Shown: in pieces, positions 18,145-32,748 of the stretch
Position numbering within the stretch: the first letter of the stretch is position 1
How the letters are laid out: every line of letters begins with the position of its first letter
Virus record (IMG/VR): IMGVR_UViG_3300023116_000184
Coordinates: 1-32,840 of that record
Source: a virus
Direction: 5' to 3' (one strand)
Length of the DNA stretch: 32,840 nt
Program-made: the position numbers and the translations under genes
Notes under the pieces: generated by a model
The model's input: the letters and a program-made list of their open reading frames with translations, nothing else
What the model was told of the DNA's origin: nothing
Databases searched by the model: none

Positions 18145-20777
18145 CTAAACATCTCCATTAGATCGTTTTTCTCTTCACTTGTCATTGATGGCATATTCCA
18201 CTCCATCACTTCGAATATTCTCTTTAACGGCTTTAGAACCGTCTTCTCAAACATAGCACTTCTATCGATATCTAACATTGTAAACTCTTCTGGATAATCG
18301 AATAAAAACGCTATACATTTTATACCTAACTCATTCTTGTTGAGAAGGACGAACTTTATCTTATCACCCGACTTCAACAATTCATACTTATTCGTTAGAT
18401 TTAACTTTTCAAGAAGTCTATTGTAATAAATAGCCGACTTAACTTGAATGGGGGTCTTCTTACCAATTCTAAAACCCACTGCCTTCTTTTCATATTTATT
18501 GTAATTGTTTAGGGAAATAGGAACGGCAATTTCTTCAATTGTGAAATCCTCAAAAGAGTCATAAATCTTTTTGATTTCCGCATTGACCTTCTTTTGGTCC
18601 TTTTCACGCATTATCATTTCGATAATCTCTTTTAAGAATGGCTTCAGTTTTTGAGGTGTAGATGTCTTAACAACTTCTAATCCGGTATATTTATATTTCC
18701 TATGGAGTTTCTTACCGTTCTCATCGTAAAACGATTGTCCGTCCTCATCACAAATCATTTCAAGAACATAGTTCTTCTTCTTAACGAAAATCGCTGATGA
18801 TGAAATACTTTCCAGTTTGAATTCGTAATTCTTCCATTTGGAATTGAGTTTTTTCTTAGCCCAACTATTGATCTTTCTATCGATAACCTTTTTGAATTCC
18901 ATAGACAATTCAAAAACTTCAGGGTTTATCTCACCATCTTTCTCTAATGGTAATTCCAACTTTTTCAGTATTTCGTGAATAGTTATACCCACACTGTCGG
19001 TATCACCGAAAACAACACAGTCGTAATCCATATCATACTTCTTTTTGACGTACTGTTCAACTACCGTAGCAGCTTCCTTAATACACCCCTGTCCTGTATG
19101 TGTAATAGATTCAGCCAATTCAACGTCGTAGAAAGGGCTACTCTTCTCTGCAAAATAACCGTAGATCTTGTTAAGTAAGATCTTCAATACATATTGCATA
19201 GTGTCGTTTTGTGCTAGTTTGTAATCAATCTCAGTTATTTTAGAAAGTATTTTACCATCCTTATCCGATCCATCGTTTTGAATAGCGTTTGAAAGTTTCA
19301 CCTTTTTAGTGTTTAACTTCTTAGAATCTTTCTTAATGTCTACACGTTCAGCATAGATCTCTTCGATAATAGACGGGACTAACCCTTTACTCTTTTGCGA
19401 GAATAAAATGTTAGATTCGGAAATAGACACTTCATTATCCTGAACGAACTTATCAAATTTTTCAGGTGTGGTCCTCACCTTTTTACCACTTTTCGATTTT
19501 ATGATGACGCCTTCATCGTCTTTATGAATGGAACCAATCTTCGTCTCAGGTGAAAGATTTAACGTCACAATAGTGTTAGGATACAGGGAGTTAACGTCAA
19601 AATAAAGAATGTCTTGTTGGAGACCTTTTTTAGATTCACGAACAAAACCCCCCATGAAATCGTCTGTAGATTTATTCACATACGTCGAAATTATCTTTCC
19701 GTCATCAAGTCCTTTTTGTGCAATAATACCAGTTACAACATTGACTGTGCTCTCAGCTTTTTTAAACGGGGATAAACTCAAATACCCAATTTTTCGACAG
19801 ATCTCAAGATATCTCAACTTATCTTCAAGAAGTTTAATAAGTCTTACATCCTGAATATTATATTCAACAAAAGCGTCCCAATCGGTATCAGCTAATTGGG
19901 AAAGGTTTACTTTGTTAACCGCATTTTTACCAAGACCCAATTCAACTTCAGATATGTGGTTTAATGAATACGATTCTCTAGGATCTCTTGTGAAGACCTT
20001 ATAGAGATACATATAGTCGAATAATGTGACACCTTGAATGTACCACATCTTCTCATAAGACTCTAAACGCTTTTCTACGTTCTCAATGAAAAAGCAGTAA
20101 TCCAAAGGGGAAAGTCTATGTGCAGCATTCTTACCCTTGTAAACGCCATTCTCTCTAAACAGAATGTTTATACGATTGATAATGTATGGAATGTCAAAAC
20201 TATCGCTATACCACCCTGTAACTATATCAGGGAAATCCGATCTCCAAAACCTTAGAAACCCCCTAAGCATTTGGAATTCGTCAGCAAACTCATGATAAAC
20301 GATATTGTTTCTACTATCAGCGCCATAGTAAGGCTTTGTGCCGAAGGTGTGATAAATGTTTGTCGTACTATCTAAAATGGTTATTAGATTGATTGGGAAC
20401 TTGGCTTCGTGGGGATCGGGAAATTCATCAGGACTATAAACCTCAATATCCAAATAGAATATCTTTAGAGGGTTCTGTGAAAAATAGTCTTGACGATTCA
20501 TTCCTTTGAAATGGTCGATAAGGAATTGCTGTTCAGGAGCTAAATTGTAATAAACGTCTTTTTTGTTGTCCGCAAACTTCTTTCTATCTTTTTTGTTTTT
20601 GAAGTTTATTCGTGTTAATTTTTCGTTGTAAATGGAGACACCATCTTTACCAGTGTCGTTCTTTACATACAAATAGGGTTTGAATGGATGAGTCTCATGG
20701 ACCCTTTCTCCATTATTATCCCATGTGAAGAGATGAACTTCTTCATCTCTCCCTGAATACACAACATTTCTAAACAT
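18141..20777 (-). CDS. 43: Replicative DNA polymerase gp43 (family B)
   Basis: An 878-residue polymerase (T4 gp43 is 898). The proofreading exonuclease has Exo I FYLDIEV (Asp110, Glu112), Exo II near GWYSDSFDIPYI (Asp195) and Exo III YNIQDVRLI (Asp310). Polymerase motif A is DVNSLYP (394-400), motif B is KILLNKIYG (532-540), and motif C is GDTDSVG with Asp592 and Asp594. All catalytic residues are therefore present. The C-terminus NDLMEMFS resembles the hydrophobic clamp-binding tail of T4 gp43 (inference). The start overlaps the glycosyltransferase stop by one base (TAATG). The clamp loader and RegA genes that flank gp43 in T4 are missing here. Confidence 0.96.
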   Translation of the reverse strand: MFRNVVYSGRDEEVHLFTWDNNGERVHETHPFKPYLYVKNDTGKDGVSIYNEKLTRINFKNKKDRKKFADNKKDVYYNLAPEQQFLIDHFKGMNRQDYFSQNPLKIFYLDIEVYSPDEFPDPHEAKFPINLITILDSTTNIYHTFGTKPYYGADSRNNIVYHEFADEFQMLRGFLRFWRSDFPDIVTGWYSDSFDIPYIINRINILFRENGVYKGKNAAHRLSPLDYCFFIENVEKRLESYEKMWYIQGVTLFDYMYLYKVFTRDPRESYSLNHISEVELGLGKNAVNKVNLSQLADTDWDAFVEYNIQDVRLIKLLEDKLRYLEICRKIGYLSLSPFKKAESTVNVVTGIIAQKGLDDGKIISTYVNKSTDDFMGGFVRESKKGLQQDILYFDVNSLYPNTIVTLNLSPETKIGSIHKDDEGVIIKSKSGKKVRTTPEKFDKFVQDNEVSISESNILFSQKSKGLVPSIIEEIYAERVDIKKDSKKLNTKKVKLSNAIQNDGSDKDGKILSKITEIDYKLAQNDTMQYVLKILLNKIYGYFAEKSSPFYDVELAESITHTGQGCIKEAATVVEQYVKKKYDMDYDCVVFGDTDSVGITIHEILKKLELPLEKDGEINPEVFELSMEFKKVIDRKINSWAKKKLNSKWKNYEFKLESISSSAIFVKKKNYVLEMICDEDGQSFYDENGKKLHRKYKYTGLEVVKTSTPQKLKPFLKEIIEMIMREKDQKKVNAEIKKIYDSFEDFTIEEIAVPISLNNYNKYEKKAVGFRIGKKTPIQVKSAIYYNRLLEKLNLTNKYELLKSGDKIKFVLLNKNELGIKCIAFLFDYPEEFTMLDIDRSAMFEKTVLKPLKRIFEVMEWNMPSMTSEEKNDLMEMFS

Positions 20778-22129
20778 TAATCAATCTTTTGTTCAGGATT
20801 CGTTTCCAATATGAATTTACGATTTGGGTCACCGACCTTGTAAAAGGTGGTTTCGTATCTCTTCATCCAATTGTTTTCATTTTCCAACCACATAGACTCT
20901 GTATATTCTCTTGCTTTCTTCGAATATTCCATATATGTTTGCTCATCCTTGAATGCCTCATCTAATCTATCTATTAGATCATTTCCTGAGTTGAATTTCA
21001 AGTCTGCATTTTTATATGTGCAAAGGTCTTGTGCTACACAGGGTAATCCGAGCGCACCAGACTCTAAGAGTTTAATGTCACTTTTAGCCTTGTTGAAGTT
21101 GTTATCTTGTAATGGGGCGTATGTTATGTTAGCACCAATATTATGGAGCCCTCTAAACAAATCAAGAAGAGGAACCCAATCGAAGTAAAGCATCTCACCG
21201 CTATCAATAAAAGGCTTCAGAGGGTGAGGGAAGCCTCCCATAAATGCAAATTGGTATTTCTTCCTTGCTTTTATGATGTCCTTTATCACATGCTCGAAAT
21301 CGTCCTTTTGACCTGTTTTGTTTGTAACGTCAAAATGGGTGCCGCTACCAGCATAAAGGACTATGGGTTTCTTTTTGTTCTTATCATAATTCTCTAATAC
21401 CTTGTCCTCATCGTAAAAACCATCAGCCCAGAACTTAGGGAGGTAATTGGGAACAACAGTCACATTTGGGTTTGATGTCTTATGTTTGTAGTAATCCTTC
21501 ATGAACTCACAAGTGACTGTAATTTCATCAACAAGCTGCATCATCTCTTCAATCTGCTGCCTTATCTTAGGATCTTCAAACGCAAATTTACATCTGTTAT
21601 AATCGGGAATATCTTCCTTGAATACGATGTCATCAATCTCATAATTGATTTTGAAACCGAGATCTTTTCCACCCTCTTTTATGAAATGCATGAACGCTTT
21701 TTGAACATCTGTAGCTTGTCGTTGAACAGTGACCGATGAGATGCCGGGATAAAAACGAGGATCAATAACCATAGACGAAAGTTCGTTAATGATCGCTTTA
21801 CCGTTATAATTCATGAAAAATGCAGGGTATCCCATTCTCCACGCATTACACCCACCTAAGTCTGCACCGTAATACACAGCACGTTTCAAGTCCGATCCCG
21901 GCATTGAAAGCGGTGGTGGAGGTAACGGTTTCTTTATAGCAGAAAACACACTAACTTTAGGTGTGCTTCTAGGGGTTCCGATAGGAGCGAAGGGTAATCC
22001 TAAAGTTCTTGATGTAATAGTTTTATCCGAAAAAGATTTAGGAATGTCCTTCGACATTCTATTGACTACCTCTTGTGTCGCTGAATCGGGCTTCTTCGGA
22101 TTGTTAACGTTCTTAAATTTCAATGTCAT
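20777..22129 (-). CDS. GT-B glycosyltransferase, group-1 (GT4-like)
   Basis: A 450-residue protein. The N-terminus (1-80) is basic, then Pro-rich (PLPPPPL at 68-74) and probably disordered. A first Rossmann-like half contains YEIDD at 163-167. A second half begins with VLYAGSGTHF (257-266) and carries the GT-B donor-binding pattern around 338-368: APLQDN, then KLLESGALGLPCVAQD with Glu356. Retaining GT-B enzymes of this type move sugar from a nucleotide sugar to an acceptor. It has no membrane segment or signal peptide. It lies between gp46 and gp43, overlapping gp46 by 17 nt. T4 has clamp, loader and regA genes there. Donor and acceptor cannot be read from sequence; DNA, virion protein or the product of the downstream-encoded cassette are all possible. 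Confidence 0.75.
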   Translation of the reverse strand: MTLKFKNVNNPKKPDSATQEVVNRMSKDIPKSFSDKTITSRTLGLPFAPIGTPRSTPKVSVFSAIKKPLPPPPLSMPGSDLKRAVYYGADLGGCNAWRMGYPAFFMNYNGKAIINELSSMVIDPRFYPGISSVTVQRQATDVQKAFMHFIKEGGKDLGFKINYEIDDIVFKEDIPDYNRCKFAFEDPKIRQQIEEMMQLVDEITVTCEFMKDYYKHKTSNPNVTVVPNYLPKFWADGFYDEDKVLENYDKNKKKPIVLYAGSGTHFDVTNKTGQKDDFEHVIKDIIKARKKYQFAFMGGFPHPLKPFIDSGEMLYFDWVPLLDLFRGLHNIGANITYAPLQDNNFNKAKSDIKLLESGALGLPCVAQDLCTYKNADLKFNSGNDLIDRLDEAFKDEQTYMEYSKKAREYTESMWLENENNWMKRYETTFYKVGDPNRKFILETNPEQKID

Positions 22130-24221
22130 CTTGCTCTCCTATTTTAGTAAACCCATTACGTTTTTCAAGAAAAATCGTATTATTGATGAGTTTTTTGTTT
22201 TCGCTTTTGAATTCTTTTCTATGAGTAATTATGTAGGAATTCTCATTATACAAGTCTTTTCTCTCATTTAAAATGTTGAAGATCAAATCACATGCATTTG
22301 ATGAAATTGCACTGTCCAACAGTTCATCGAAGAAAATCACGTTAAATCTAACGTCTCCCTGAATTCTTCTAATATCGAGGAACGAGAACAGACACGCTAA
22401 GTCAATACGTTTCCTCTCACCACCTGAGAAGTTTTCATATGATTTTTCAAGACCCTTATCATTCAATAACTCATAGTCGAAAAATTCGTCGAATGTTAAT
22501 TTCGCATTCGATTCCAACATTTCCAGATAGTATTCAATCCTCTCATTTAAAACTGTAATGAGTTTATTTATGATGTAAGATTTAATTCCTTCTTCTGAAA
22601 CGATGAATTTAATGTTATCAAATACATCAAGATTTTCTTTTGTAGAATCAACTTTATCCTTGGAAACGCCCAACTTCTCGTCGTTTTCGGATATTAAAAC
22701 TTCGAAGGTGTTTTTCTCGTTTTCCGCTTCGAGGATATCTTCTTCGACAGTTGAAAGCATTTTAACGAGGTTTTCAACTTGAGAATTTAAATTCTTATTT
22801 GTTGAAATTAAATCCTGCATTTCCTTTAATTTGGTGGAAATCTCACGAAACTCTTCACCTTTGGAATTTAGGATTTCTTCTAATGGAGCAATCTTTTCCT
22901 CTAGTTTTTCCTTCTCCGCTTCAACACCTTTTATCTTTTCTTTTATTTCTAACAGTTCTTTATACTGCTTAATAGCTTCTGATAAAGCCATTAATTTACG
23001 TTTTTTCTGAGTTAAAGTGTCTATCTTTTCACGATTGGAATTACGTGTTTCGTCTGAGTTCTTTATCGTTTCTTTCAACTGATCAATCGTATCTTGATTA
23101 TTTTTCTGCTCTTCCTTTGAGAAGGGACGTTCACACTCTAGACAGATATCTCCATACTTTTCTATCTTTTTTAACGTCGATTTAGCTGATTTGGTTTCTG
23201 CGTCCAACTTGACATTTTCTTCGTGGAGTTTATCAATTTTAAGAGGAATGGAATCGATAGCCTTCTTTATAGCCTCTTCTTTTCCAATCTCCTTTTCGAC
23301 AAGTTCTTCGTCAATATCGTAAGATTTAACGTGAGAAGCAAAGGTTTTAAGGACCGCATCAGAAGAACTAATATCCGCTTTTATTTCCCCCATCTTCTCT
23401 TTGGTATTGTGAATGTCTTCAGATAATTCATTTAAAACCGACTCATAGGTGGAAGGGTCAAGACCGTCGATATCAACAGTTTTCTCCTTAATTACCCCAA
23501 TTTCGTTCTCATAATCCGTCTTACGAATTTTGAGTTTTCTTATCTTCTCTTTTTTAAGGTCCTCAAATTCCTTCTCTTTTTGCTTGTAATTGTCTCTATT
23601 TTGCTCAAGGAGTTTTAAGGTTTGTAAATTGACATCTTGTTCCCTAGAAAACTCATTATACTTCTGCCTTGCCATCTTCTCCATATGCTTCAATATTTCC
23701 AATCTGAAAATACTTTGCACGAAATTGTTCCTATCAGCCTTCCCCTGTTGCATGAAAGGGACGGAATTGTTTAACGAGTGAACTATGCAGTTTTTAAAGA
23801 TTATCGACGAAGAAGAGATAATGTTTTCAATTTGCTTATTTAACAATTCAATGGCGGGTGGATTCTCATCCTCATCACCATCGATGAATAATTTGCAATA
23901 TGAAGGTTTTATACCCCTTTCAATCTTATATGACTTTGTAACACCATTTTTAGTTACATCGAACTCTAATACCCCGACGCAACCTTTTTTATTAACGTCA
24001 TTTAAGATGTCACTCTTTTTAAGTTTAGCGATTGTAGTTCCGAAAAGAGTCCAATAAAAGAGTTGGACGATAGTTGTCTTTCCAGAACCATTTTCGTCGT
24101 TTTTGTCGAAATTATAGCCTGTTATGATGTTTATCCCTGATGAGAAATCAAACTCAATTGGGACGTTACCTATAGAAAGGAAATTCTTTCCGTATAGTTT
24201 TTTAAATACGACTTCTTTCAC
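22113..24221 (-). CDS. 46: Recombination nuclease subunit gp46 (SbcC/Rad50-like)
   Basis: A 702-residue SMC-like ATPase, longer than T4 gp46 (560). Walker A is ENGSGKTT at 43-50. Long coiled-coil arms (about 180-350 and 375-530) flank a zinc hook CLEC at 360-363. The ABC signature FSGGERKR (598-605) and Walker B NVIFFDE (627-633) close the protein. With gp47 it forms the Mre11/Rad50-type complex that resects DNA ends and degrades host DNA. The start is a GTG overlapping the stop of the guaB-like gene (TAGTG). Unusually, gp47 is about 7 kb away, beyond the sugar cassette. Confidence 0.93.
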   Translation of the reverse strand: MKEVVFKKLYGKNFLSIGNVPIEFDFSSGINIITGYNFDKNDENGSGKTTIVQLFYWTLFGTTIAKLKKSDILNDVNKKGCVGVLEFDVTKNGVTKSYKIERGIKPSYCKLFIDGDEDENPPAIELLNKQIENIISSSSIIFKNCIVHSLNNSVPFMQQGKADRNNFVQSIFRLEILKHMEKMARQKYNEFSREQDVNLQTLKLLEQNRDNYKQKEKEFEDLKKEKIRKLKIRKTDYENEIGVIKEKTVDIDGLDPSTYESVLNELSEDIHNTKEKMGEIKADISSSDAVLKTFASHVKSYDIDEELVEKEIGKEEAIKKAIDSIPLKIDKLHEENVKLDAETKSAKSTLKKIEKYGDICLECERPFSKEEQKNNQDTIDQLKETIKNSDETRNSNREKIDTLTQKKRKLMALSEAIKQYKELLEIKEKIKGVEAEKEKLEEKIAPLEEILNSKGEEFREISTKLKEMQDLISTNKNLNSQVENLVKMLSTVEEDILEAENEKNTFEVLISENDEKLGVSKDKVDSTKENLDVFDNIKFIVSEEGIKSYIINKLITVLNERIEYYLEMLESNAKLTFDEFFDYELLNDKGLEKSYENFSGGERKRIDLACLFSFLDIRRIQGDVRFNVIFFDELLDSAISSNACDLIFNILNERKDLYNENSYIITHRKEFKSENKKLINNTIFLEKRNGFTKIGEQDDIEI

Positions 24222-25222
24222 TAAACAACACTTTCACTTCTAGAGCCGCCACTCAACATGATGAATTCACAATTCTCTTGGAATTCTCCGAGATTAGTCG
24301 CCCCAACGTAACTAAAGGCACTCTGAAGCCCTTGTTCTATTTCTCTGAAAATATATTTCACATGCCCTTTAAATGGTGTGGTTTTAATAATACCCTCAAC
24401 AAAGCGATTTTCACCTTTGTTCTCAGCACTAGCCGAACCCCCATACACAGTGTAGAATTGACCCTCATCGTTCCTGAAAACGGACACAGGGGTCTCAGAT
24501 GTACCTGAGATCATACTACCCAACATAACAGCGTCAGAGAACGCTAAAGCCTTTGAGATGTCTCCTACGTGACTTATCCCACCATCTGCAATGATGTCGA
24601 TGGGTAGGGGAGAGTGGTCCGCTTTCTCGCAAATTTTCTCTAAGGCGTAAAGCTGTGGCATACCTACACCTGTGTTATACCGTGTTCTGCAAACGGGGGA
24701 GGGACCTATTCCGACCTTTGCAACGTCTGCGCCCCAATAGATGAAATCCTCATAAGCTTCTGGCGTTGCTATGTTACCAGCTATTATAGTCACCTTTCTT
24801 CTTTCCTCTTCTGAAAGGGTGGAATTAATCCAAAGAAGCATATTCTTCATTAAGATGTGATGCCCATGAGCGACATCGATACAGAAGATTCTCGCACCAT
24901 ATTCGTATAATCTACTGAATCGTTCCTTATCTTCATCTTGAACACCTATAGAAACGCCAACACCTTCTGAGGAACCACATTCATCGAAATCATCAAGGGC
25001 TTGCTCTATACTGTTGAATCTATGAAGAAGCCCTAAACCGCCATGATCACTAATTTCCTTAGCCATCTTGGGTCCTGTTATGTTTTTCATGTTAGCTGAA
25101 ATAACAGGAAATTTAAATTCATGATTACCTAAATGAGTGGTCAGATCAACGGATGTTCTGGTTTTTATCTCTGAATAATTAGGTTTTATTAATACGTCAC
25201 TATAGGTGTAGCCTTTTTCCAT
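24221..25222 (-). CDS. IMP dehydrogenase / GMP reductase family enzyme
   Basis: A 333-residue TIM-barrel enzyme. The family's catalytic loop is GIGPSPVCRTR with Cys178 and Thr180. IDVAHGHH (115-122), IADGGI (211-216) and MLGSMISG (233-240) build the NAD and phosphate sites. There is no CBS domain, as in GMP reductase (E. coli GuaC has 347 residues). The flap (about 259-285) is short and lacks the Arg-Tyr pair of typical IMP dehydrogenases. The ending SYVGATNLGEF also resembles GMP reductase. It could either make XMP for guanine nucleotides or turn GMP into IMP; both would shift purine pools during phage replication. A perfect AAGGAG precedes the ATG. The substrate direction is unresolved. Confidence 0.85.
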   Translation of the reverse strand: MEKGYTYSDVLIKPNYSEIKTRTSVDLTTHLGNHEFKFPVISANMKNITGPKMAKEISDHGGLGLLHRFNSIEQALDDFDECGSSEGVGVSIGVQDEDKERFSRLYEYGARIFCIDVAHGHHILMKNMLLWINSTLSEEERRKVTIIAGNIATPEAYEDFIYWGADVAKVGIGPSPVCRTRYNTGVGMPQLYALEKICEKADHSPLPIDIIADGGISHVGDISKALAFSDAVMLGSMISGTSETPVSVFRNDEGQFYTVYGGSASAENKGENRFVEGIIKTTPFKGHVKYIFREIEQGLQSAFSYVGATNLGEFQENCEFIMLSGGSRSESVV

Positions 25223-25241: not shown

Positions 25242-25275
25242 ACACACCCAAATCACTTATCGGATTTAGGTGTGT
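25242..25275 (-). promoter_or_regulatory. Hairpin over the stop codon of the 52-residue gene
   Basis: On the RNA, ACACACCTAAATC pairs with GATTTGGGTGTGT (13 pairs, one G-U) around an 8-base loop. The 3' arm starts next to the TGA stop, which lies at its base. The sequence then runs CCCCCTTTTAAGGAG into the next ATG. The T-run is short and displaced, so this is a partial terminator, a processing or stability hairpin, or an attenuator setting guaB-like, 46 and 43 levels. It is not a strong intrinsic terminator. Confidence 0.45.
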
Positions 25276-25411
25276 TGAGAGATTCTTTGATATCTTCTAA
25301 CTTGACGATTTCTCTCATCTCGTCAACTGACGGACATACAGATTGATTGTCGGTTATTTTATTGATATAGAAATCAATACACTTAACAATCAGAGTAGTT
25401 TTCTCACTCAT
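25253..25411 (-). CDS. 52-residue small protein
   Basis: A short gene encoding a mixed-charge protein with an N-terminal helix (TTLIVKCIDFYINKI), two cysteines (residues 11 and 26) and an acidic/basic C-terminus. It starts nine bases after the stop of the 31-residue gene and has only a weak site (AGATAACAG), so it may be translated by coupling. Its stop lies in the 25242-25275 hairpin. It is not recognised. Being among the first genes after an early-type promoter, a host-directed role is possible but unproven. Confidence 0.55.
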   Translation of the reverse strand: MSEKTTLIVKCIDFYINKITDNQSVCPSVDEMREIVKLEDIKESLNTPKSDK

Positions 25412-25419
25412 CTGTTATC

Positions 25420-25515
25420 TCACTTGCTTGTGAAACGACCGAACTTATCTCTCTTGGCCCAATACTTACGACAGAAACGACCATCTCTTGTTCTATTACT
25501 GTAATACTTCTTCAT
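25420..25515 (-). CDS. 31-residue basic microprotein
   Basis: A very short gene with the best translation start in the region: AAAAAGGAGAAAAACGT then ATG, directly behind a strong promoter. The product is rich in Lys, Arg, Phe and Tyr and holds a two-fold pattern, RDGRF at about 10-14 and RDKFGRF at about 22-28. Such small basic proteins in T4-like early regions often act on host machinery. No specific function can be assigned. The strong promoter and site are the main evidence that it is real. Confidence 0.6.
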   Translation of the reverse strand: MKKYYSNRTRDGRFCRKYWAKRDKFGRFTSK

Positions 25516-25543: not shown

Positions 25544-25572
25544 ATTATACAATAATTCAAAACCTTTTTCAA
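25544..25572 (-). promoter_or_regulatory. Consensus sigma70 (early-type) promoter
   Basis: TTGAAA (25572-25567) and TATAAT (25549-25544) are separated by exactly 17 bases, with an AT-rich spacer. The start would be near 25537, about 20 bases before the ATG of the 31-residue gene. It sits in the 80-base gap after the methyltransferase-like gene and would drive the microproteins, guaB-like, 46, GT and 43 independently of the sugar cassette. Confidence 0.8.
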
Positions 25573-25595: not shown

Positions 25596-26231
25596 TCATT
25601 TCTTAATAGCGTCCACCACAATTGAATGCGGGACGTTTAAATACTGTTCATATCTTTTAAAGTTATCAGGTGTTCTCATAACATAAAAAATACTATAATC
25701 TATTTCATTTAAAACGGGAATACCATCCTCATCGAAATAATGTAAATAGTTTATCTCGCCATTTGTTTTGAAGGGGCTGTTATCGAAAAGTTCTTTAACG
25801 GATTCTATTGTCGGAAACCAAACGTGCCCACCTCCAATTACCGTTTTACTATTTTCGTCATAACTCCCACCGCCAACAGGATCGAAGATTATGTTACCTT
25901 TTTCATCCTTTACAGATCTATTAATATGATGTTCCCACTTATAATCAGGGACAGATAAGCGAAAGATTCCATTCGGTTTTAAAATTCTATAAATCTCTTT
26001 AATGGTGTCGTGTAATTTATCAAATTCTATATGTTCAAACACATCTTCAGCTTGAAAGTATTTGACTAAATTATCATCAAGTGGTATAGGTTTCGTTAAA
26101 TCGTGTTTAATATGGCGGTTGTCCTGCCTGTTTAGAGATATCCCTATAGTGTTTTTGTATTTGTGATTGACTCTGGAATCACTTACAATATCCCCTGCGT
26201 ATAAAATTGTGTCTTCATTTATGTTATACAT
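25596..26231 (-). CDS. SAM-dependent methyltransferase-like protein
   Basis: A 211-residue protein. I place the start at ATG 26231, with AAAGG upstream, rather than further up where the frame would run deep into the preceding gene. The class I methyltransferase core is partly visible. The acidic motif FQAEDVFEHI (59-68) and YRILKPNGIFRLSVPD (81-96) match motifs of the Methyltransf_11/UbiE-like type. The usual Gly-rich motif I is poorly conserved (ILYAGDIVSDSR at 9-20). A long C-terminal part (about 97-211) with GGGHVWF may bind the acceptor. Clustered with sugar-transfer genes, it is more likely to methylate a sugar or cap a glycan than DNA. Confidence 0.65.
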   Translation of the reverse strand: MYNINEDTILYAGDIVSDSRVNHKYKNTIGISLNRQDNRHIKHDLTKPIPLDDNLVKYFQAEDVFEHIEFDKLHDTIKEIYRILKPNGIFRLSVPDYKWEHHINRSVKDEKGNIIFDPVGGGSYDENSKTVIGGGHVWFPTIESVKELFDNSPFKTNGEINYLHYFDEDGIPVLNEIDYSIFYVMRTPDNFKRYEQYLNVPHSIVVDAIKK

Positions 26232-27213
26232 CTTTATTGCCTTTAAATGTATCCAATAACCCTGCGTAATAATCGAAAACGTCATCCACCATAGAATCCA
26301 TAGTCTTCGGCTCTTCTTTTCCCCATGCTTCTATTTTCCCTAAGTCTATCATAGACGGGAGAAGGGCTTTTGCTCCTGATAATATAACTGCACTTTGCCT
26401 TGTGTCGAACCCGCAAGAAAGAACATCGGCACCATTAGCTTGACTGACTATACAACCATGCACTCTATTACCAAAAAACTTGTCCACATTTCTATAGTGT
26501 TTTAAAAATTCTATAGAATCACCTCGATAAGAAATGATATTGTCATCGCTCCACCCCATACCTTTTGCGGTGTTGTGTTCATTTTTATTATGTGCGAAAA
26601 ATTTGAACCCATTTTCTAAAAGAATTTTAGCAATAGGGGTTACTTTATTTTTCCATTGTTCACATTCATTAGGACTAAACTCACCATAATGCCCACCTAA
26701 TGGCATTAAGTTGCACCCTTTAATAGAATCTGTTTTTTCCATGCCGTATGTGGCGAGATATGCGGGGCAAACTTGAACAGGGAAGTCAATTCCCGTTATT
26801 AGATTGGCTATTTCATCTCGAACGACGACAGTATGCGACCTCTCTTTTAAAAGTTCGGCTTCTGAGTGTAACCTTTCCTTGTCAACGCCTCTGAAGATGT
26901 TTGTGGCATCTTGAAAGGACCCTGCGCCTATCACACAAAAGTTATCCTTATTCTCTGAAACCCAACCTCTAGTCATAACTTTCCACCAAGGGACTGATGA
27001 CCATGAGCTATTATGGTTTAAACTCCAAAAAACAGGCATTCCTGCCCAGATACACCTGTCAAAATCTATAGGCTTAAAAATCCCATTTGTTTCCTTATCC
27101 ACAACATTCCCTATTGCGGATTTATCTATTTCACGTATGACGTTACTTAGACCGATTCGAATAAATTCGTCGCCGGGATTCTTCCCAATTGTTGATACTA
27201 ACAACCACTTCAC
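26224..27213 (-). CDS. Polysaccharide pyruvyltransferase-like protein
   Basis: A 329-residue protein with a GTG start in the GTGA overlap with the preceding gene. It matches the layout of the WcaK/CsaB polysaccharide pyruvyltransferase family. The N-terminus WLLVSTIGKNPGDEFIRIGL gives the NxGDE-type loop (about 12-16), GAGSF occurs at 96-100, RDEIA at 132-136, and the C-terminal half holds GNRVHGCIVSQANGADVLSC (248-267), the family's nucleotide-side signature. Members transfer pyruvate from PEP onto sugars, and some relatives have become sugar transferases. There is no membrane segment. It overlaps the methyltransferase-like gene by 8 nt. Confidence 0.7.
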   Translation of the reverse strand: MKWLLVSTIGKNPGDEFIRIGLSNVIREIDKSAIGNVVDKETNGIFKPIDFDRCIWAGMPVFWSLNHNSSWSSVPWWKVMTRGWVSENKDNFCVIGAGSFQDATNIFRGVDKERLHSEAELLKERSHTVVVRDEIANLITGIDFPVQVCPAYLATYGMEKTDSIKGCNLMPLGGHYGEFSPNECEQWKNKVTPIAKILLENGFKFFAHNKNEHNTAKGMGWSDDNIISYRGDSIEFLKHYRNVDKFFGNRVHGCIVSQANGADVLSCGFDTRQSAVILSGAKALLPSMIDLGKIEAWGKEEPKTMDSMVDDVFDYYAGLLDTFKGNKDV

Positions 27214-28028
27214 AATTTAATTCCCTCTAATTTCTCGATAATCTTATTCGAAAACCCACTACACACACTCCATGTGTAATGTCCAAACTTATTTATATTG
27301 GAATTGTAAAAGTCTACGCATTCCTCGGCTTTCCCACTTTCGGGAATTGGCAACTCATTTAAAAATTCACTAATAACTTTTTCATCTGTGGAGTGTAGTC
27401 TAAGTGCTAGATCGCCATAATTCTCAAAGAAAGGGTTTGATTTATCGTTTATTAATATAGGTATTGAACCACATGCGAGAGATTCGGCTACCCTCATACT
27501 TGATGCGCCTTTACCTTTTGGGCATAGTGTGTAATGTGACTTAACCATCTCATTATACGAGTTTAATGATATTTCTTCTTTCATTTCGACTGACTCACCC
27601 CAATAATTTTTACACTCTTGTATTTTCCATTTGTCGGAGTTTAAATTCCGCATAAAGCGTCTCTCGGGGGTGTCCCAAATTGTCCCACCAAAATATCCGA
27701 AAGTGGATTTACTGGTAACATCACCTGATTTAAATTTGTGTATTCTCGGGTTTGTTGTGTATAATTGAAATTTTCTAACGTTATCAGGCACTATTGTAGT
27801 TGCAAACCACACACTTTGATCGTCTGAAAAGTTAACGTCCCCACTTAATATGAATACAAGTTTCTCTTTACAATAAGAGAACTTATTTTTCACCATAGAT
27901 ATCTTTCCGTGATCGTCACCAACACTCTCATAGATAATAAAGTCAGCGTCTTCTGGGGATTGAGAAATTTGACAACCCTGTCCCTGAATCCAAGAAAGTG
28001 ATGTTCTTTCTAATGGGTATAATTTCAT
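27210..28028 (-). CDS. Exostosin-like (GT47-type) glycosyltransferase
   Basis: A 272-residue protein starting at ATG 28028, which overlaps the previous stop (ATGA). A TTG 15 bases upstream is less likely. The diagnostic segment is at about 166-195: YTLCPKGKGASSMRVAES followed by LACGSIPILIND. It matches the C-terminal donor-binding half of exostosin-family GT-B enzymes. The N-terminal half has ADFIIYES and KLVFILSGDVNF strands. It would add a sugar to an acceptor in the cytoplasm; no signal or membrane segment is seen. It is embedded in a co-translated series of sugar genes. Confidence 0.65.
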   Translation of the reverse strand: MKLYPLERTSLSWIQGQGCQISQSPEDADFIIYESVGDDHGKISMVKNKFSYCKEKLVFILSGDVNFSDDQSVWFATTIVPDNVRKFQLYTTNPRIHKFKSGDVTSKSTFGYFGGTIWDTPERRFMRNLNSDKWKIQECKNYWGESVEMKEEISLNSYNEMVKSHYTLCPKGKGASSMRVAESLACGSIPILINDKSNPFFENYGDLALRLHSTDEKVISEFLNELPIPESGKAEECVDFYNSNINKFGHYTWSVCSGFSNKIIEKLEGIKL

Positions 28029-28768
28029 TGGATTATTTGCCAATCACCCTTTAAAATGGGTGTACCTAAGTGTAAATCCCGACCGTCGAGTTTTTCTCTA
28101 TAGTATCCCGGTTTCATTATTAAAAACTTTTCAGTGTCTATTTTTAATTGATCCACTAAATTACTAAAGCAACTCTCTATTAGAACTAACTTAGTCGCAT
28201 TTTCCATTATTTTACACCAATCGAAAACACAATCTGAAATTGGTTGGACTAACACAACTTGTAAATCTCTTTTCTGAAGATCTAATTTATAATTTGTGTT
28301 TGTGTCGGAGGCTTGATTTTGAAAGACGACATAATTAGGGTTTTGAACCAATTTTGAATAAAGGTCTTCTTCCCGTTCCACGTTTCTTTTAATGTCAAGA
28401 TTCCACTTTTCTTCGATAGGGACTCTAGCCAATTTATACCTAAATTCGTCGAAGGTGAATTCTCGTTGATTTAAGAATTTTTTCGTGTTATTGTTATTCC
28501 AGCTTCCCGGTGAATTGAAAGAAAGGTCTAAAACCTTACTCCCAATACTATTAGCGTATTTTTGACTATCCACAATGGGATTACTAGTGCGAATAGGGAC
28601 AAAATTCACATAATCTATATGTCCCCTCACAAAATTCGTAATTAAATGATCGTAAACGGGCCAATGAACATTGTATCCTTGCTGATGATAGTACTTGGCA
28701 ATAGGAAGGCATATGATAATATCTCCTATTTTACCGGGAAGGATTATAGTTAGATTTTCGCTTCTCAT
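28025..28768 (-). CDS. GT9/heptosyltransferase-like protein
   Basis: A 247-residue protein. The N-terminus LPGKIGDIIICLPIAKYY (about 10-27) is the hallmark of the ADP-heptose:LPS heptosyltransferase (GT9) fold. It is followed by GYNVHWPVY. The C-terminal half has VLVQPISDCVFDWCKIMENA and LVLIESCFSNL, fitting the donor-site helix of that family. The protein is shorter than bacterial heptosyltransferases (about 320-350), so it may be reduced. Start and stop both overlap neighbours by 4 nt. Confidence 0.6.
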   Translation of the reverse strand: MRSENLTIILPGKIGDIIICLPIAKYYHQQGYNVHWPVYDHLITNFVRGHIDYVNFVPIRTSNPIVDSQKYANSIGSKVLDLSFNSPGSWNNNNTKKFLNQREFTFDEFRYKLARVPIEEKWNLDIKRNVEREEDLYSKLVQNPNYVVFQNQASDTNTNYKLDLQKRDLQVVLVQPISDCVFDWCKIMENATKLVLIESCFSNLVDQLKIDTEKFLIMKPGYYREKLDGRDLHLGTPILKGDWQIIQ

Positions 28769-29607
28769 CTTATCTCGTTTGGTATGTGAACGTTGAAGTT
28801 GTCGAAGTATATCTTCTCTTGAAGCTGCTCATTAGGTTGCGGTTTTAGGAACGCGCCCCAAGGTTCACGTTTAGTAAGGTTATGTTTTAAGTTGAAAAAC
28901 ATCATATTATCTATAAAAATATCAAGGTCATCGTTTTCAATAGCATTTATGTTGAATTGAGTTTCCTTAGAATCGTTATTCCACTGATTGGCGTGATGAA
29001 TGTGGAAACAAAACGGTGGGTATTGATTTCCTATTGGGGTGTTATCACCAAAACACTTCATAATACCCGCATATACAGGATCGAAACGTGGTCTACTCAA
29101 TAAATAGTCGTTGAAAAGATCATAATATTCTTTATACCATTCGCGTTTAAACACAAAACAATCGAATCCAGCAATCTCCCATCGAACGGGTTGTGCTTGC
29201 TCCTTTAGTTTATCGAAACTATCTATATCTCGAATGTCTAACCTCGAACAGGGGAAGCATTGGGGTTCATTTTCAATGATATATTCTATCAGATTAGGGT
29301 TGATGATGACATCACTATTCACAAATATGAAGTAATCTTCACTTTGTTCATAAAGAGTTCGTAAGATGTCGTTGACGAAGGGTAGTTTCTTCTCTCCATC
29401 TTCAATGTAATCATGACTAGAACGTGTTAAATCGAATATGATGTCGAGTTTATAATGGTTTTTAAAGGTGCTCTCTTCGTCTCTGAATTGAACATCTAAA
29501 ACGTCAACAACATCTGGGAAGACTTTCTTCAGATGTTTATACGAATCAACGGCAATATCTTGTCTTTTATATTTTCCGAATGTATTGGTCCCTATTAAAA
29601 TCTTCAT
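28765..29607 (-). CDS. GT-A-type glycosyltransferase-like protein
   Basis: A 280-residue protein with a nucleotide-sugar-transferase-like N-terminal half. It begins MKILIGTNTFGKYKR. The short acidic metal motif FVNSDVII (95-102) follows a YEQSEDY strand in the place where GT-A enzymes have DxD. The C-terminal half holds the acceptor-side segment RWEIAGFDCFVFKREWY and a His cluster (FHIHH). It is distinct from the two GT2-like proteins encoded upstream but has a similar size. Its stop and start form ATGA overlaps, so it is part of the same translational chain. Confidence 0.6.
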   Translation of the reverse strand: MKILIGTNTFGKYKRQDIAVDSYKHLKKVFPDVVDVLDVQFRDEESTFKNHYKLDIIFDLTRSSHDYIEDGEKKLPFVNDILRTLYEQSEDYFIFVNSDVIINPNLIEYIIENEPQCFPCSRLDIRDIDSFDKLKEQAQPVRWEIAGFDCFVFKREWYKEYYDLFNDYLLSRPRFDPVYAGIMKCFGDNTPIGNQYPPFCFHIHHANQWNNDSKETQFNINAIENDDLDIFIDNMMFFNLKHNLTKREPWGAFLKPQPNEQLQEKIYFDNFNVHIPNEIR

Positions 29608-30395
29608 AGCTTCTCCGAATACTTTTCCTTAATGGTTTTTAAATTTTCGAGTACCTTTTCCTCTGTGAAAGCTCTCGCTTCGTTAGGATAACCCCCATAC
29701 TTATGCTTCCAATGCATTGCTGACATGTTAACGTTTTCAGCATATTCCCCTTTATTGGTGATTGAAGAGTTCTCTGTAGCTCCCTCTATCTCACTAATGT
29801 ATTTATCACTGTTCATAACGTCAGGCGACCACCACATAGAAGGTAGATATCCCCGTCTCACACACATAAAACTCCAATCAGCATGTTCAAAAGCATTCAT
29901 ATACCCAACATCGAAAGGCCCTACTACATCCAAAAGGTCTTTACGCATGTACATGAATGCACCTTGGAAGTTTTGATGGAAATCAACACCCCTCCCATCC
30001 TCATAAAGAATGGTTTTGATTTTAGGGTTCTTGTTTATCTTACTAAACATCAGATGTTTCAACCCTGTCACTTTCGATGTGTTAATATATCTTTTGAAGG
30101 CGTAAGGATCATTCACTAAAATGTCTTCCTCAACCAAAAAGAGATGTTCACACTTTTTACTTGTAAGAAAACTCAAGGCCAAATTCTTACAGCGCCCAAC
30201 CCCTTGATTATCTATTAATGTAATCATGGGGTAATCATCGACGATGGGGTATTCTACATCACTCCCGCCGTCTCTAATAACGACAAGTTCACTGATAAAC
30301 CCATAATTTGCATATTTCGATAACAATTCATAGGATTGTTTGAAATATTCGGGTCTATTATATGTTATTAATGCAACACCAATCTTTTCGATCAC
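29604..30395 (-). CDS. Family 2-like glycosyltransferase (second paralogue)
   Basis: A 263-residue GT-A enzyme with a GTG start overlapping the previous stop. It starts IGVALITYNRPEYFKQSYE, a typical GT2 opening. The metal-binding position is FLVEEDILV (87-95) with Glu90/Asp91 in place of DxD. The acceptor side has FQGAFMYMRKD, AFEHADWSF and the SPDVMNSDKY segment. It is clearly related to the next gene (EHxDxS and WxPDVxNS at equivalent positions), pointing to a tandem duplication followed by divergence. It probably adds a sugar; which one is not visible. Confidence 0.75.
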   Translation of the reverse strand: MIEKIGVALITYNRPEYFKQSYELLSKYANYGFISELVVIRDGGSDVEYPIVDDYPMITLIDNQGVGRCKNLALSFLTSKKCEHLFLVEEDILVNDPYAFKRYINTSKVTGLKHLMFSKINKNPKIKTILYEDGRGVDFHQNFQGAFMYMRKDLLDVVGPFDVGYMNAFEHADWSFMCVRRGYLPSMWWSPDVMNSDKYISEIEGATENSSITNKGEYAENVNMSAMHWKHKYGGYPNEARAFTEEKVLENLKTIKEKYSEKL

Positions 30396-31216
30396 GGTAA
30401 AAACTTTCTTGCGTAATTCTTCTGAATAGTTTCGAGCCTTTTTAGAACCTGTTCATTAGAAAGTAACTGTTCATCTGTCGGTTGTGTTGGGTTGAAACCA
30501 TACTTATGCTCAAATATCATGCAAGCTAATTTAAAATTCTTCTCAAAGTTCTCGTCTTTGCTTTGACTTTTCTCTACAGACTCCTGAATGGTCGTAATGT
30601 AATCCCATGAGTTATTAACATCAGGCCACCAGCAGTAAGAGGGTAGTAAACCAGACTTAACAATCTTATAACTATGGTCAACGTGCTCCATATTTTTAAG
30701 TTTACTGTAGCGTTCGTCCATATATCCAACCGCCTGAATCACAGACTTATGGAAAAACTGAAAACCTGCCATTAGATTTGGTAGGAAATTAACTTCAAGG
30801 TCATCGTCGTATTCTAATGTTGCTCTAATAGCTTTAGAACCGTCAGGGTTGAAGTTGTAAACATTCGAAAACCCATAATTCATATGCCACAATCCGCTTG
30901 CTTCAGCAGTTTTAATGTACTTGATGAAGATTTCGGGGTTCTTTATGATGACATCATCTTCAATTAAGAAGAGAAAGTTACAATCGTTCTGTATGAGGCA
31001 TCTTAATGCATCATTTTTCGAACAGGCTATGCCAAGATTCTTATCGTGTTGGATGACCTGTAAATCGTCGTTATTGGCGAATTCATATACAGAATCATCG
31101 TATGGTTCGCCATCATTGACGACACAAAGGAAATCTATTTGAGGTAGAGATTTTATACATTGTTTGAAATAATCTTCTCTATCTTTGGTCGTTACTGCTA
31201 TTCCTAATTTATTCAT
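30392..31216 (-). CDS. Family 2-like glycosyltransferase (first paralogue)
   Basis: A 274-residue GT-A enzyme. The opening LGIAVTTKDREDYFKQCIK and the metal motif FLIEDDVII (83-91, Asp87/Asp88) define it. AGFQFFHKS, NMEHVDHSY and WWPDVNNSWDY match its neighbour along the length, so the two genes are paralogues. The ATG overlaps the gp47 stop by 8 nt, which puts the head of the sugar cassette under the same transcript and probably the same early expression as gp55 and gp47. There is no transmembrane segment. Confidence 0.75.
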   Translation of the reverse strand: MNKLGIAVTTKDREDYFKQCIKSLPQIDFLCVVNDGEPYDDSVYEFANNDDLQVIQHDKNLGIACSKNDALRCLIQNDCNFLFLIEDDVIIKNPEIFIKYIKTAEASGLWHMNYGFSNVYNFNPDGSKAIRATLEYDDDLEVNFLPNLMAGFQFFHKSVIQAVGYMDERYSKLKNMEHVDHSYKIVKSGLLPSYCWWPDVNNSWDYITTIQESVEKSQSKDENFEKNFKLACMIFEHKYGFNPTQPTDEQLLSNEQVLKRLETIQKNYARKFLP

Positions 31217-32309
31217 CGTTAGTATTCACTTCCAATAATGCTTCTTCATAAAGACTTAAGGTTTCACTTAATATTTTATCTTTATTATCTTCAATTTCAA
31301 GTTTTTCTACATATTCTGTGAGTAATAAATCCATATCAATCTCGACAGATTCGAAATCATCTGCTGTTTTGTTAGAACTTGAAGTGATTATTTCAGCGTT
31401 AAAATCTAAAGGTTTCAATTTGGATAGTCTATCGGAAATAGCATACACCTTTTCGATATCCACTTCCTCATCCACTATCAACTTTGTGATATTACCTTTG
31501 AAATCATTCTTCAGAATTGCGATCTCATCCTCATCTTTTGCCAATATCTTGGAAAGAGAGACCTTGATGTGTTTCGGAGAAACGTCATTCTTTATAAATT
31601 CCATTTCTCCGGTGCTGAAATTCAAAATCTCTACACCCTTTTCTTCTTGATAATCCGACCAATTCTGCTCATACGTATTACCAATGTATTTGATAATGCC
31701 GCTTTTGTACTTCTTCTCTGAACGAACATGGAAATGACCAGTTATAACCTTGTCAATCTTCTTTAGAAGACTAGCGGAATTAATTGAGTGGTGGTTCTTC
31801 TCACAAATCTTAACCTTATTCACTCTAAACGTTTCAATTTCCAAATGACCAAACGCATAATCCACTTTAGAAGGGATCTCAGAATAGTCAAACCCCCAAG
31901 GGAGGAATGCGATAGTTTTGTCCATATACTCGAAAGAAGTCGTTTCATCAACAACAACTATATTATCCCATTTTTCGAAAATTTGCGTGGAGTGAATCCT
32001 TGCATTATCCTTGTAGTAACAATCGTGATTCCCTACCAATATGATAATTTGAAAATCTTTTAATGTCTCAAGGAACTTATTCGCAGTGTAAACCGCTGTT
32101 AGATTCAACTCTTCACGGTAATGGAAAAAATCTCCAAGGAAAATGAGTGTGTTTATATGATTATCGTTAGCAGTCTGTTTCAGCCATTCAACATACCCAA
32201 GTGCGGTTTTATGGAAGGCAGACGAGTTCATTTTGTTTCCAATGTGGAGATCAGAAAACAAGAGAACTCGTTCTTCGAGCATCTGTTTAATTCGTTCTAT
32301 TTTAGTCAT
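31209..32309 (-). CDS. 47: Recombination nuclease subunit gp47 (SbcD/Mre11-like)
   Basis: A 366-residue metallophosphoesterase (T4 gp47 is 339). Motifs in order: FSDLHIG with Asp20 and His22, GDFFH (59-63), GNHDCY (93-98), FGHLEIE (153-159) and GHFHVRS (191-197). All metal ligands are thus present. I chose ATG 32309, which overlaps the gp55 stop by 8 nt. The further upstream ATG at 32351 would overlap gp55 much more, and ATG 32282 is an alternative that leaves ten residues before the first motif. It is the nuclease partner of gp46. Confidence 0.9.
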   Translation of the reverse strand: MTKIERIKQMLEERVLLFSDLHIGNKMNSSAFHKTALGYVEWLKQTANDNHINTLIFLGDFFHYREELNLTAVYTANKFLETLKDFQIIILVGNHDCYYKDNARIHSTQIFEKWDNIVVVDETTSFEYMDKTIAFLPWGFDYSEIPSKVDYAFGHLEIETFRVNKVKICEKNHHSINSASLLKKIDKVITGHFHVRSEKKYKSGIIKYIGNTYEQNWSDYQEEKGVEILNFSTGEMEFIKNDVSPKHIKVSLSKILAKDEDEIAILKNDFKGNITKLIVDEEVDIEKVYAISDRLSKLKPLDFNAEIITSSSNKTADDFESVEIDMDLLLTEYVEKLEIEDNKDKILSETLSLYEEALLEVNTNDE

Positions 32310-32748
32310 AAGAATTGTAATCGTGGTCTTCGGTTTCCCTACTACCTTCAAGCATTATATCATCATGTACTGTGTCATGCAAATTCAAAACGAACTCTTT
32401 TTCCTTTTTCTCACGCTTGATTCGGTTACAAAACGCATTGAACGCTATTCGGGTGAAATAAGAAAAGGCGTTGCCCTTCTCTTTGGCGAACTTTTTCTTG
32501 TCGATAGCCTGCAACATCTTAACAATAGCATCCCCAACCATCTCATCTTTATAGCTGTAATTGATGAAATTAGGTGCGAATGAAAGACGAGTCGATATCT
32601 TTAAAACGCAATCCGCTAATTCATCGCATATCACACCCGTCCCATAAGACTCCACAATAAGGTCTGCAAACCTTTTCGAGTCTACGTAGTGTTCTTTTTT
32701 AGGTTTCTTTGATTTCGATTCTTTTGATTTTGAATCCTTCTTCTTCAT
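32302..32748 (-). CDS. 55: Late-transcription sigma factor gp55
   Basis: A 148-residue sigma-like protein, compact compared with T4 gp55 (185). A Lys/Ser-rich N-terminus (1-25) precedes a helical domain that ends in NAFSYFTRIAFNAFCNRIKR (about 93-112), the region-2-like segment that opens the late promoter. A good site, AGAGGAAAT, lies before the ATG. In T4, gp55 directs host RNA polymerase to TATAAATA promoters, like the one at 11094-11101 here. T4 gp55 also carries a clamp-binding C-terminus; here the protein ends acidic and aromatic (DHDYNSYD), and I cannot tell whether that works the same way. Confidence 0.88.
   Translation of the reverse strand: MKKKDSKSKESKSKKPKKEHYVDSKRFADLIVESYGTGVICDELADCVLKISTRLSFAPNFINYSYKDEMVGDAIVKMLQAIDKKKFAKEKGNAFSYFTRIAFNAFCNRIKREKKEKEFVLNLHDTVHDDIMLEGSRETEDHDYNSYD

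Follow-up and report, generated by a model that had tools for sequence, protein, structure and literature searches.

A sugar-gene island at a fixed site between gp47 and gp46 of uncultured T4-like viruses and its possible role as a glycan locus

Introduction

Bacterial O-antigen (rfb) loci occupy a fixed site with conserved flanks, and their glycan genes are swapped as whole blocks. Among viruses, the capsid glycans of chloroviruses are made with soluble, early-expressed transferases, GDP-fucose synthesis, a predicted methyltransferase, and the exostosin-like protein A075L (PMC5408694, PMC11571054). Virions of the cluster F1 mycobacteriophage Che8 are glycosylated, and glycans have been reported on both capsid and tail tube (Freeman 2023, as cited in PMC11256854 and PMC12619734); moraphages have four core glycosyltransferases (PMC12619734). 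Here, we describe a seven-gene sugar cassette between gp47 and gp46 in a 32,840-bp fragment of a virus record (IMG/VR record IMGVR_UViG_3300023116_000184, positions 1 to 32,840), which we call the window. The minus strand of the window carries a T4-like replication and recombination block, and the plus strand carries baseplate and tail genes. A preliminary description of this DNA had placed seven minus-strand genes at 25,596-31,216, continuous with gp55 and gp47. We found these open reading frames (ORFs) where it had put them, with gp55, gp47, and the cassette following one another without a gap. We found no report of a sugar island between 47 and 46 in the searchable literature; subscription papers lie mostly outside that search, and priority is unproven.

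Results

A fixed hot spot between gp47 and gp46

The preliminary description had proposed comparing the 47-46 interval across related phages. We gathered 80 relatives by a gp47 scan, and 9 contigs were unscorable. Among the 72 scorable intervals, the window included, 33 held a sugar-gene island, 26 held a single gene of about 255 amino acids (aa), and 13 were empty; if gp46 lay beyond the end of a contig or flank, 1.3 kb or more of sequence past gp47 was counted as an island. Island length from gp47 to gp46 was about 4 to 13.4 kb at loci with both ends visible. The large relatives share the order gp55-gp47-island-gp46-glycosyltransferase-gp43-uvsX-gp41-gp32-gp45. Six complete islands together contain 75 ORFs of 100 aa or longer, every one of them on the same strand. 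Proteins of the island families accounted for 57 of these 75 ORFs inside the site, compared with 3 of 699 elsewhere in the six records; the reference set for this comparison was built from island proteins, and matches above 90% identity were excluded. The presence of an island at the same site in many relatives, together with the shared strand of all 75 ORFs, demonstrates that the cassette is not a product of chance. Chance ORFs or a misassembled window were rejected as explanations, since the same gene order recurs in large relatives.

The interval states cluster on the gp47 tree and require at least four changes; with the root unknown, gain and loss are indistinguishable, and the branch of the window is long. 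We conclude that uncultured T4-like viruses have a fixed hot spot between gp47 and gp46, and we read the cassette of the window as one allele of an old, hypervariable locus. The preliminary description had it that a seven-gene cassette was inserted between 47 and 46. The genes are there, but they represent one allele at this old site, and a gene of the IMP dehydrogenase (IMPDH) family and two small ORFs also lie in the interval. A recent insertion of the cassette is unsupported: its GC content (36.5%) is near that of the flanks (34-35%), and occupied sites are spread over deep gp47 lineages. In the named cultured relatives, Methylophilales phage Melnitz-3 and Synechococcus phage S-WAM1, no sugar genes are annotated between 47 and 46.

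Close relatives carry unrelated islands

We found that closely related viruses bear unrelated islands, through replacement of the whole block. Two relatives, G017 and G037, are 79% identical in nucleotide sequence until about 300 bp beyond gp47, and identity returns, at 80%, at the very start of gp46; across the island of about 12 kb there is a single 129-bp match. The gp47 proteins of L055 and L056 are 98.8% identical, yet 1 of 10 island proteins is alike at 50% identity. L076 and L084 have 0 of 10 island proteins in common, and L072 and L074 have kept 6 of 9. The fully swapped pairs and the partly shared pairs together show that both block and piecemeal exchange occur. Whole islands would be swapped by recombination in the conserved flanks, on the gp47 side and in gp46.

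The cassette encodes transferases and putative capping enzymes

The cassette genes, with their borders and neighbors, are listed in Table 1. The overlap of gp47 with GTa1 is 8 nucleotides (nt), and GTa1/GTa2, GTa2/G3, G3/G4, and G5/G6 overlap by 4 nt each. G4 and G5 overlap by 4 nt if G5 starts at ATG 28,028 and by 19 nt if it starts at TTG 28,043; for G6 and G7, the overlap is 8 nt with the G7 start at ATG 26,231 and 62 nt with ATG 26,285. The previously described overlaps of 4-8 nt are right if the shorter forms of G5 and G7 are used.

Table 1. Features of the window from gp55 to the glycosyltransferase behind gp46
Feature	Coordinates	Strand	Evidence
gp55-like late sigma factor, upstream gene of the cassette operon	32302..32748	-	PHROG 234, E 4.4e-27
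gp47, SbcD-like nuclease subunit, left island border	31209..32351	-	PHROG 100, E 4.8e-72; border in relatives
GTa1, GT-A glycosyltransferase (GT2-like)	30392..31216	-	PHROG 2456, E 1.7e-25; AlphaFold2 (AF2) model, predicted local distance difference test (pLDDT) 93.9; Foldseek; EDD and EHVD motifs
GTa2, GTa1 paralogue (37% identity)	29604..30395	-	PHROG glycosyltransferase family, E 3.7e-23; EED and EHAD motifs
G3, GT-A-fold glycosyltransferase	28765..29607	-	AF2 pLDDT 86; Foldseek to RmlT, GalNAc-T2, and TarP, by fold only
G4, probable GT-B-type transferase	28025..28768	-	Alignment A3; synteny with G6
G5, exostosin-family transferase, ATG 28028 (TTG 28043 gives the longer ORF)	27210..28028	-	Pfam PF03016, 5.7e-09; PF24785, 1.4e-07
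G6, polysaccharide pyruvyltransferase family, GNRVHG motif	26224..27213	-	Pfam E 5.7e-04; alignment A4; homologue
G7, S-adenosylmethionine-dependent methyltransferase, ATG 26231 (ATG 26285 gives the longer ORF)	25596..26231	-	Pfam PF08241 (Methyltransf_11), 1e-05, over cut-off
Sigma-70-like promoter match, TTGAAA-17-TATAAT, behind the cassette	25544..25572	-	11/12, best of 55 matches
31-aa Arg/Lys-rich ORF, AAGGAG upstream	25420..25515	-	Sequence MKKYYSNRTRDGRFCRKYWAKRDKFGRFTSK; right behind the region's best promoter match
52-aa ORF	25253..25411	-	ORF list
IMP dehydrogenase/GMP reductase family gene, in the cassette-gp46 gap	24221..25222	-	Pfam PF00478, E 8.2e-74
gp46, SbcC-like subunit, right island border	22113..24221	-	Synteny and tblastn with relatives; border alignment
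Conserved glycosyltransferase directly behind gp46	20777..22129	-	PHROG 7162, E 7.5e-28

Several of the assignments in the preliminary description, which were made without database searches, were borne out. GTa1 and GTa2 are indeed paralogues, both match PHROG glycosyltransferase families, and the acidic donor motifs are intact in both. Structure prediction, which had been suggested as a check, gave a GT-A fold for GTa1 and for G3, the latter in keeping with its earlier label of a further GT-A-like protein. By Foldseek, GTa1 matches GT-A enzymes, among them POMGNT2-type O-mannose GlcNAc-transferase entries, the fucosyltransferase WrtF, and TarP; among the viral models nearest to it are a mega-virus glycosyltransferase and several entries without a name. 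Many mycobacteriophages have glycosyltransferases homologous in sequence to GTa1, Squirty gp100 among them. G3 had no significant family match in Pfam or PHROG profile searches; its cluster comprises 20 loci, the window included, in which it recurs as island gene number 2 to 4. Searches of GenBank phage records by tblastn revealed no relatives of G3 or G6, and no near-identical phage was present among these records.

Relatives of GTa1 also occur in other settings. In the single-gene clade (L012, L021, L028, and 23 similar loci), the protein of about 255 aa is a distant GTa1 relative, at 20-25% identity, with NDS-like motifs. The first island gene of one clade (L008:10270-11031, L015:9885-10652, L020:1640-2407, L083:11014-11790, and others) is a GTa1 paralogue in which EDD has become xSN. 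These xSN paralogues may be inactive glycosyltransferases with a structural or scaffolding role.

G5, earlier called exostosin-like, lies above the Pfam cut-off for both Exostosin_GT47 and RXYLT1_C. We compared it with chlorovirus A075L, whose donor contacts T150, R158, G203, R208, and E211 are listed in PMC11571054. These five residues are aligned and kept in G5, in a weak match (E about 0.02) in which N153 and N202 differ and the Asp73 side falls outside the aligned span. G7 exceeds its cut-off, in line with the methyltransferase label. The pyruvyltransferase label fared less simply. G6 itself scores 20.3 bits against PF04230 (PS_pyruv_trans), under the cut-off of 25.3, but a 53%-identical homologue passes over the whole profile (43.9 bits, E 3.7e-11). 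A pattern scan of limited reach, which detects close relatives only, gave no bacterial relative of G6. The label that we could not sustain is GT9-like for G4, which rested on an N-terminal motif judged by eye: G4 has no Pfam, PHROG, or PDB-sequence match. It is the conserved partner of G6 in other viruses and is probably a GT-B-type transferase.

A hydrophobicity scan found no clear membrane segment in any of the seven proteins, as had been described. G4 has one borderline hydrophobic window (1.85), which is probably a Rossmann-type strand/helix and not a membrane segment.

Islands hold diverse sugar enzymes, and G4-G6 appear to move together

We tallied Pfam families in 134 proteins, comprising 127 representatives from relatives and the seven window proteins. 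The transferases belonged to GT2, GT10, GT11, GT25, GT47, GT7, and group 1, and the other enzymes were FkbM methyltransferases, epimerases, dehydratases, and thiamine-diphosphate enzymes. NCBIfam and PHROGs searches concurred with this tally. Sugar-nucleotide enzymes are thus found inside islands, with epimerase-family genes in the islands of several relatives. Two island proteins are about 600 aa long (L072:18985-20796 and L084:14057-15841). Both probably belong to the thiamine-diphosphate (acetolactate-synthase-like) enzymes of the tally, and such enzymes in these islands could suggest branched-chain sugars.

Part of the cassette recurs outside T4-like genomes. Contig G002 lacks the T4-like gene set; on it, a G4 homologue, a G5 homologue, an FkbM methyltransferase, and a G6 homologue occur in that order, adjoining a GDP-mannose dehydratase, a GDP-fucose-synthase-like epimerase, and a UDP-sugar dehydrogenase. 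In G001 and G003, the G4 and G6 homologues adjoin a GDP-mannose dehydratase. From these neighborhoods, the G4-G6 block appears to travel between viruses as a unit and to belong to sugar metabolism. The loci of the last two records (L003 and L005), which are non-T4, also carry long proteins that resemble, by eye, planctomycete-type cytochrome/DUF1549 proteins.

Searches for membrane export and DNA modification genes

The preliminary description had noted a soluble cassette without flippase, polymerase, or undecaprenyl-phosphate transferase, and this picture extends to the clade. None of about 320 island proteins had two hydrophobic (membrane) segments. Profiles for a flippase (PF01943), GtrA (PF04138), and the undecaprenyl-phosphate sugar transferase (PF02397) had no match in 31 records, and the positive controls matched. 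The preliminary description had also raised a modified DNA base as a possible acceptor. PF00303, which covers thymidylate synthase and dCMP/dUMP hydroxymethylase, was absent from all 37 related records (about 2.2 Mb) and gave three matches in the T4 control; none of these records is certified complete and the window's own genome is a fragment, so this absence is strong, not final. A DNA-base acceptor is disfavored. The Tet_JBP profile had no match in a search that lacked a positive control and is uninformative.

We also compared two window enzymes with the glycosyltransferases of Che8. GTa1 matched gp110 at E 0.006 over 33 residues and gp109 at E 1.6, and the glycosyltransferase after gp46 matched gp108 at E 0.34. 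Ser/Thr-rich proteins that are candidate acceptors are present in relatives; without a control set, they were not used as evidence.

Genes and signals around the cassette

The preliminary description omitted the IMPDH/GMP-reductase gene, the two small ORFs, the promoter match before gp46, and the glycosyltransferase after gp46. The IMPDH/GMP-reductase gene had no tblastn homologue in the first 85 loci. Pattern scans of viral and genome collections, a bacterial source included, gave no match to it by a method that detects close relatives only. Past gp46, the window continues with the glycosyltransferase (20,777-22,129) and then gp43. This PHROG 7162 glycosyltransferase is kept with or without an island (G004, G007, G011, G015, G018, and G019; for example, L045 and L082 without an island).

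The promoter match at 25,572-25,544 could drive the genes up to and including gp46, whichever island is present. It is the best of 55 promoter matches, against about 42 expected by chance, so this promoter is unproven. The window has four copies of the sequence TATAAATA; each is on the minus strand, and the plus-strand structural genes are preceded by none. With this distribution, a late-promoter reading gave no expression timing.

Discussion

In our judgment, there is an even chance that the soluble enzymes work in the cytoplasm to build a variable glycan on a virion protein and that the cassette is one allele of a serotype-like gp47-gp46 glycan locus. The cassette would be cotranscribed with gp55 and gp47. 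Sugars would then be added stepwise from nucleotide-sugar donors in the host cytoplasm by GTa1, GTa2, G3, G5, and probably G4, and the chain would be capped through methylation by G7 and pyruvylation by G6; a pyruvylated or methylated cap is plausible. The acceptor would most likely be an exposed virion protein (capsid, decoration, or fiber), giving each phage lineage its own surface glycan. Adsorption, evasion of recognition by hosts or grazers, or superinfection may be the selective reason. We favor a virion protein in view of the matching toolkit of chloroviruses, of the glycosylated virions of mycobacteriophages together with the GTa1-like enzymes that many of these phages encode, and of the serotype-like replacement, which one would expect of an exposed structure. 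More tentatively, and at somewhat less than even chances, the large uncultured T4-like group may possess a phage "serotype locus". This would be an island at one fixed site, exchangeable as a whole and with as many as 16 genes for soluble sugar enzymes, and it would give the virion a lineage-specific, branched, partly self-made coat that is methylated or pyruvylated.

Several points weigh against a virion glycan. Both the virion-protein acceptor and its glycan are putative. Soluble transferases could equally extend the host lipopolysaccharide core. The similarity of G5 to A075L is weak (E 0.02), the two window enzymes compared showed no convincing direct homology to Che8 gp108-110, and no nucleotide-sugar synthesis gene was recognized in the 32.8-kb fragment.

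The main rival explanation is that the island remodels the host envelope. Sugars and caps would be added in the cytoplasm to lipopolysaccharide core or O-antigen precursors, the host flippase and ligase would export the product, and superinfection or readsorption of progeny would be blocked. Pelagimyophage glycosyltransferases are usually read in this way (PMC7029224), and hypervariability would suit a changing host surface. The enzymes of the lipopolysaccharide core are likewise soluble or peripheral, yet the 31 records searched gave no lipid-linked step, flippase, or GtrA, and the limited pattern scan found no bacterial G6 relative. Moreover, islands bring genes for sugar-nucleotide synthesis that a host surface pathway would already supply. 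We consider envelope remodeling unlikely, while still a serious competitor to a virion glycan.

Two further possibilities seem to us improbable. One is that the enzymes glycosylate a modified base of the phage DNA against restriction, as the T4 alpha- and beta-glucosyltransferases do. The parallel with the T4 alpha-glucosyltransferase, drawn in the preliminary description, is sound in that a-gt is located between 55 and 47, but the site is a different one and a-gt is a GT-B enzyme, whereas GTa1 is GT-A. Phage DNA can reportedly bear diverse glycans (Pyle 2024), and among phage GT-A enzymes there are some with DNA as their presumed target, such as TAGT in T-even phages (PMC13216743). Nevertheless, the lack of PF00303 in 37 records, with T4 as a positive control, speaks against this acceptor, and up to 16 genes of many families that vary among close relatives are more than a DNA shield needs. 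The other possibility, to which we give slightly less credence still, is that the product is separate from virion, envelope, and DNA, either a small secreted or free glycoconjugate or modified host cytoplasmic proteins. All of the enzymes are soluble, and the virion acceptor is itself inferred, both of which would fit such a product. However, replacement of alleles as whole blocks is characteristic of surface-exposed structures, and no export or natural-product genes were noticed.

If the island coats virions, then tailed phages evolve exchangeable glycan serotypes, and the surface chemistry of the virion would diversify in addition to tail-fiber sequence. A virion coat would bear on adsorption and host range, on the stability of the particle, and on recognition by predators or immune systems. 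The islands are also a rich source of soluble sugar enzymes of many kinds. Phage glycosyltransferases and a few glycosylated virions are already known; the novel part is the organization as an exchangeable allele at a fixed site.

This organization can be compared with several known systems. The replacement pattern is the same as that of rfb loci, but the island is phage-borne, and no Wzx-type flippase or undecaprenyl-phosphate sugar transferase was found. The T4 alpha-glucosyltransferase is likewise a sugar transferase gene near gp55 and gp47; it is one gene between 55 and 47 that encodes a GT-B enzyme (PMC13216743) acting on hydroxymethylcytosine, unlike the GT-A enzyme GTa1. The host recognition cluster of pelagimyophages is a hypervariable, glycosyltransferase-rich region of T4-like viruses of uncultured bacteria, as here. 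It differs in being a structural region between VrlC and gp14 with tail fibers, read as modifying the host O-chain (PMC7029224). Che8 and other mycobacteriophages are tailed phages, and GTa1 matches mycobacteriophage glycosyltransferases such as Squirty gp100, whereas Che8 has few such genes, near the genome end, and its gp108-110 lack a convincing match to the two window enzymes. Chlorovirus PBCV-1 encodes mostly soluble transferases without signal peptides, GDP-fucose synthesis, the exostosin-like A075L, and a predicted glycan methyltransferase, a kit that the islands resemble; its glycans are lineage specific, as those of the islands would be (PMC5408694, PMC11571054). PBCV-1 is a eukaryotic virus with scattered genes and an established capsid acceptor, in contrast to islands that form one locus and have a putative acceptor.

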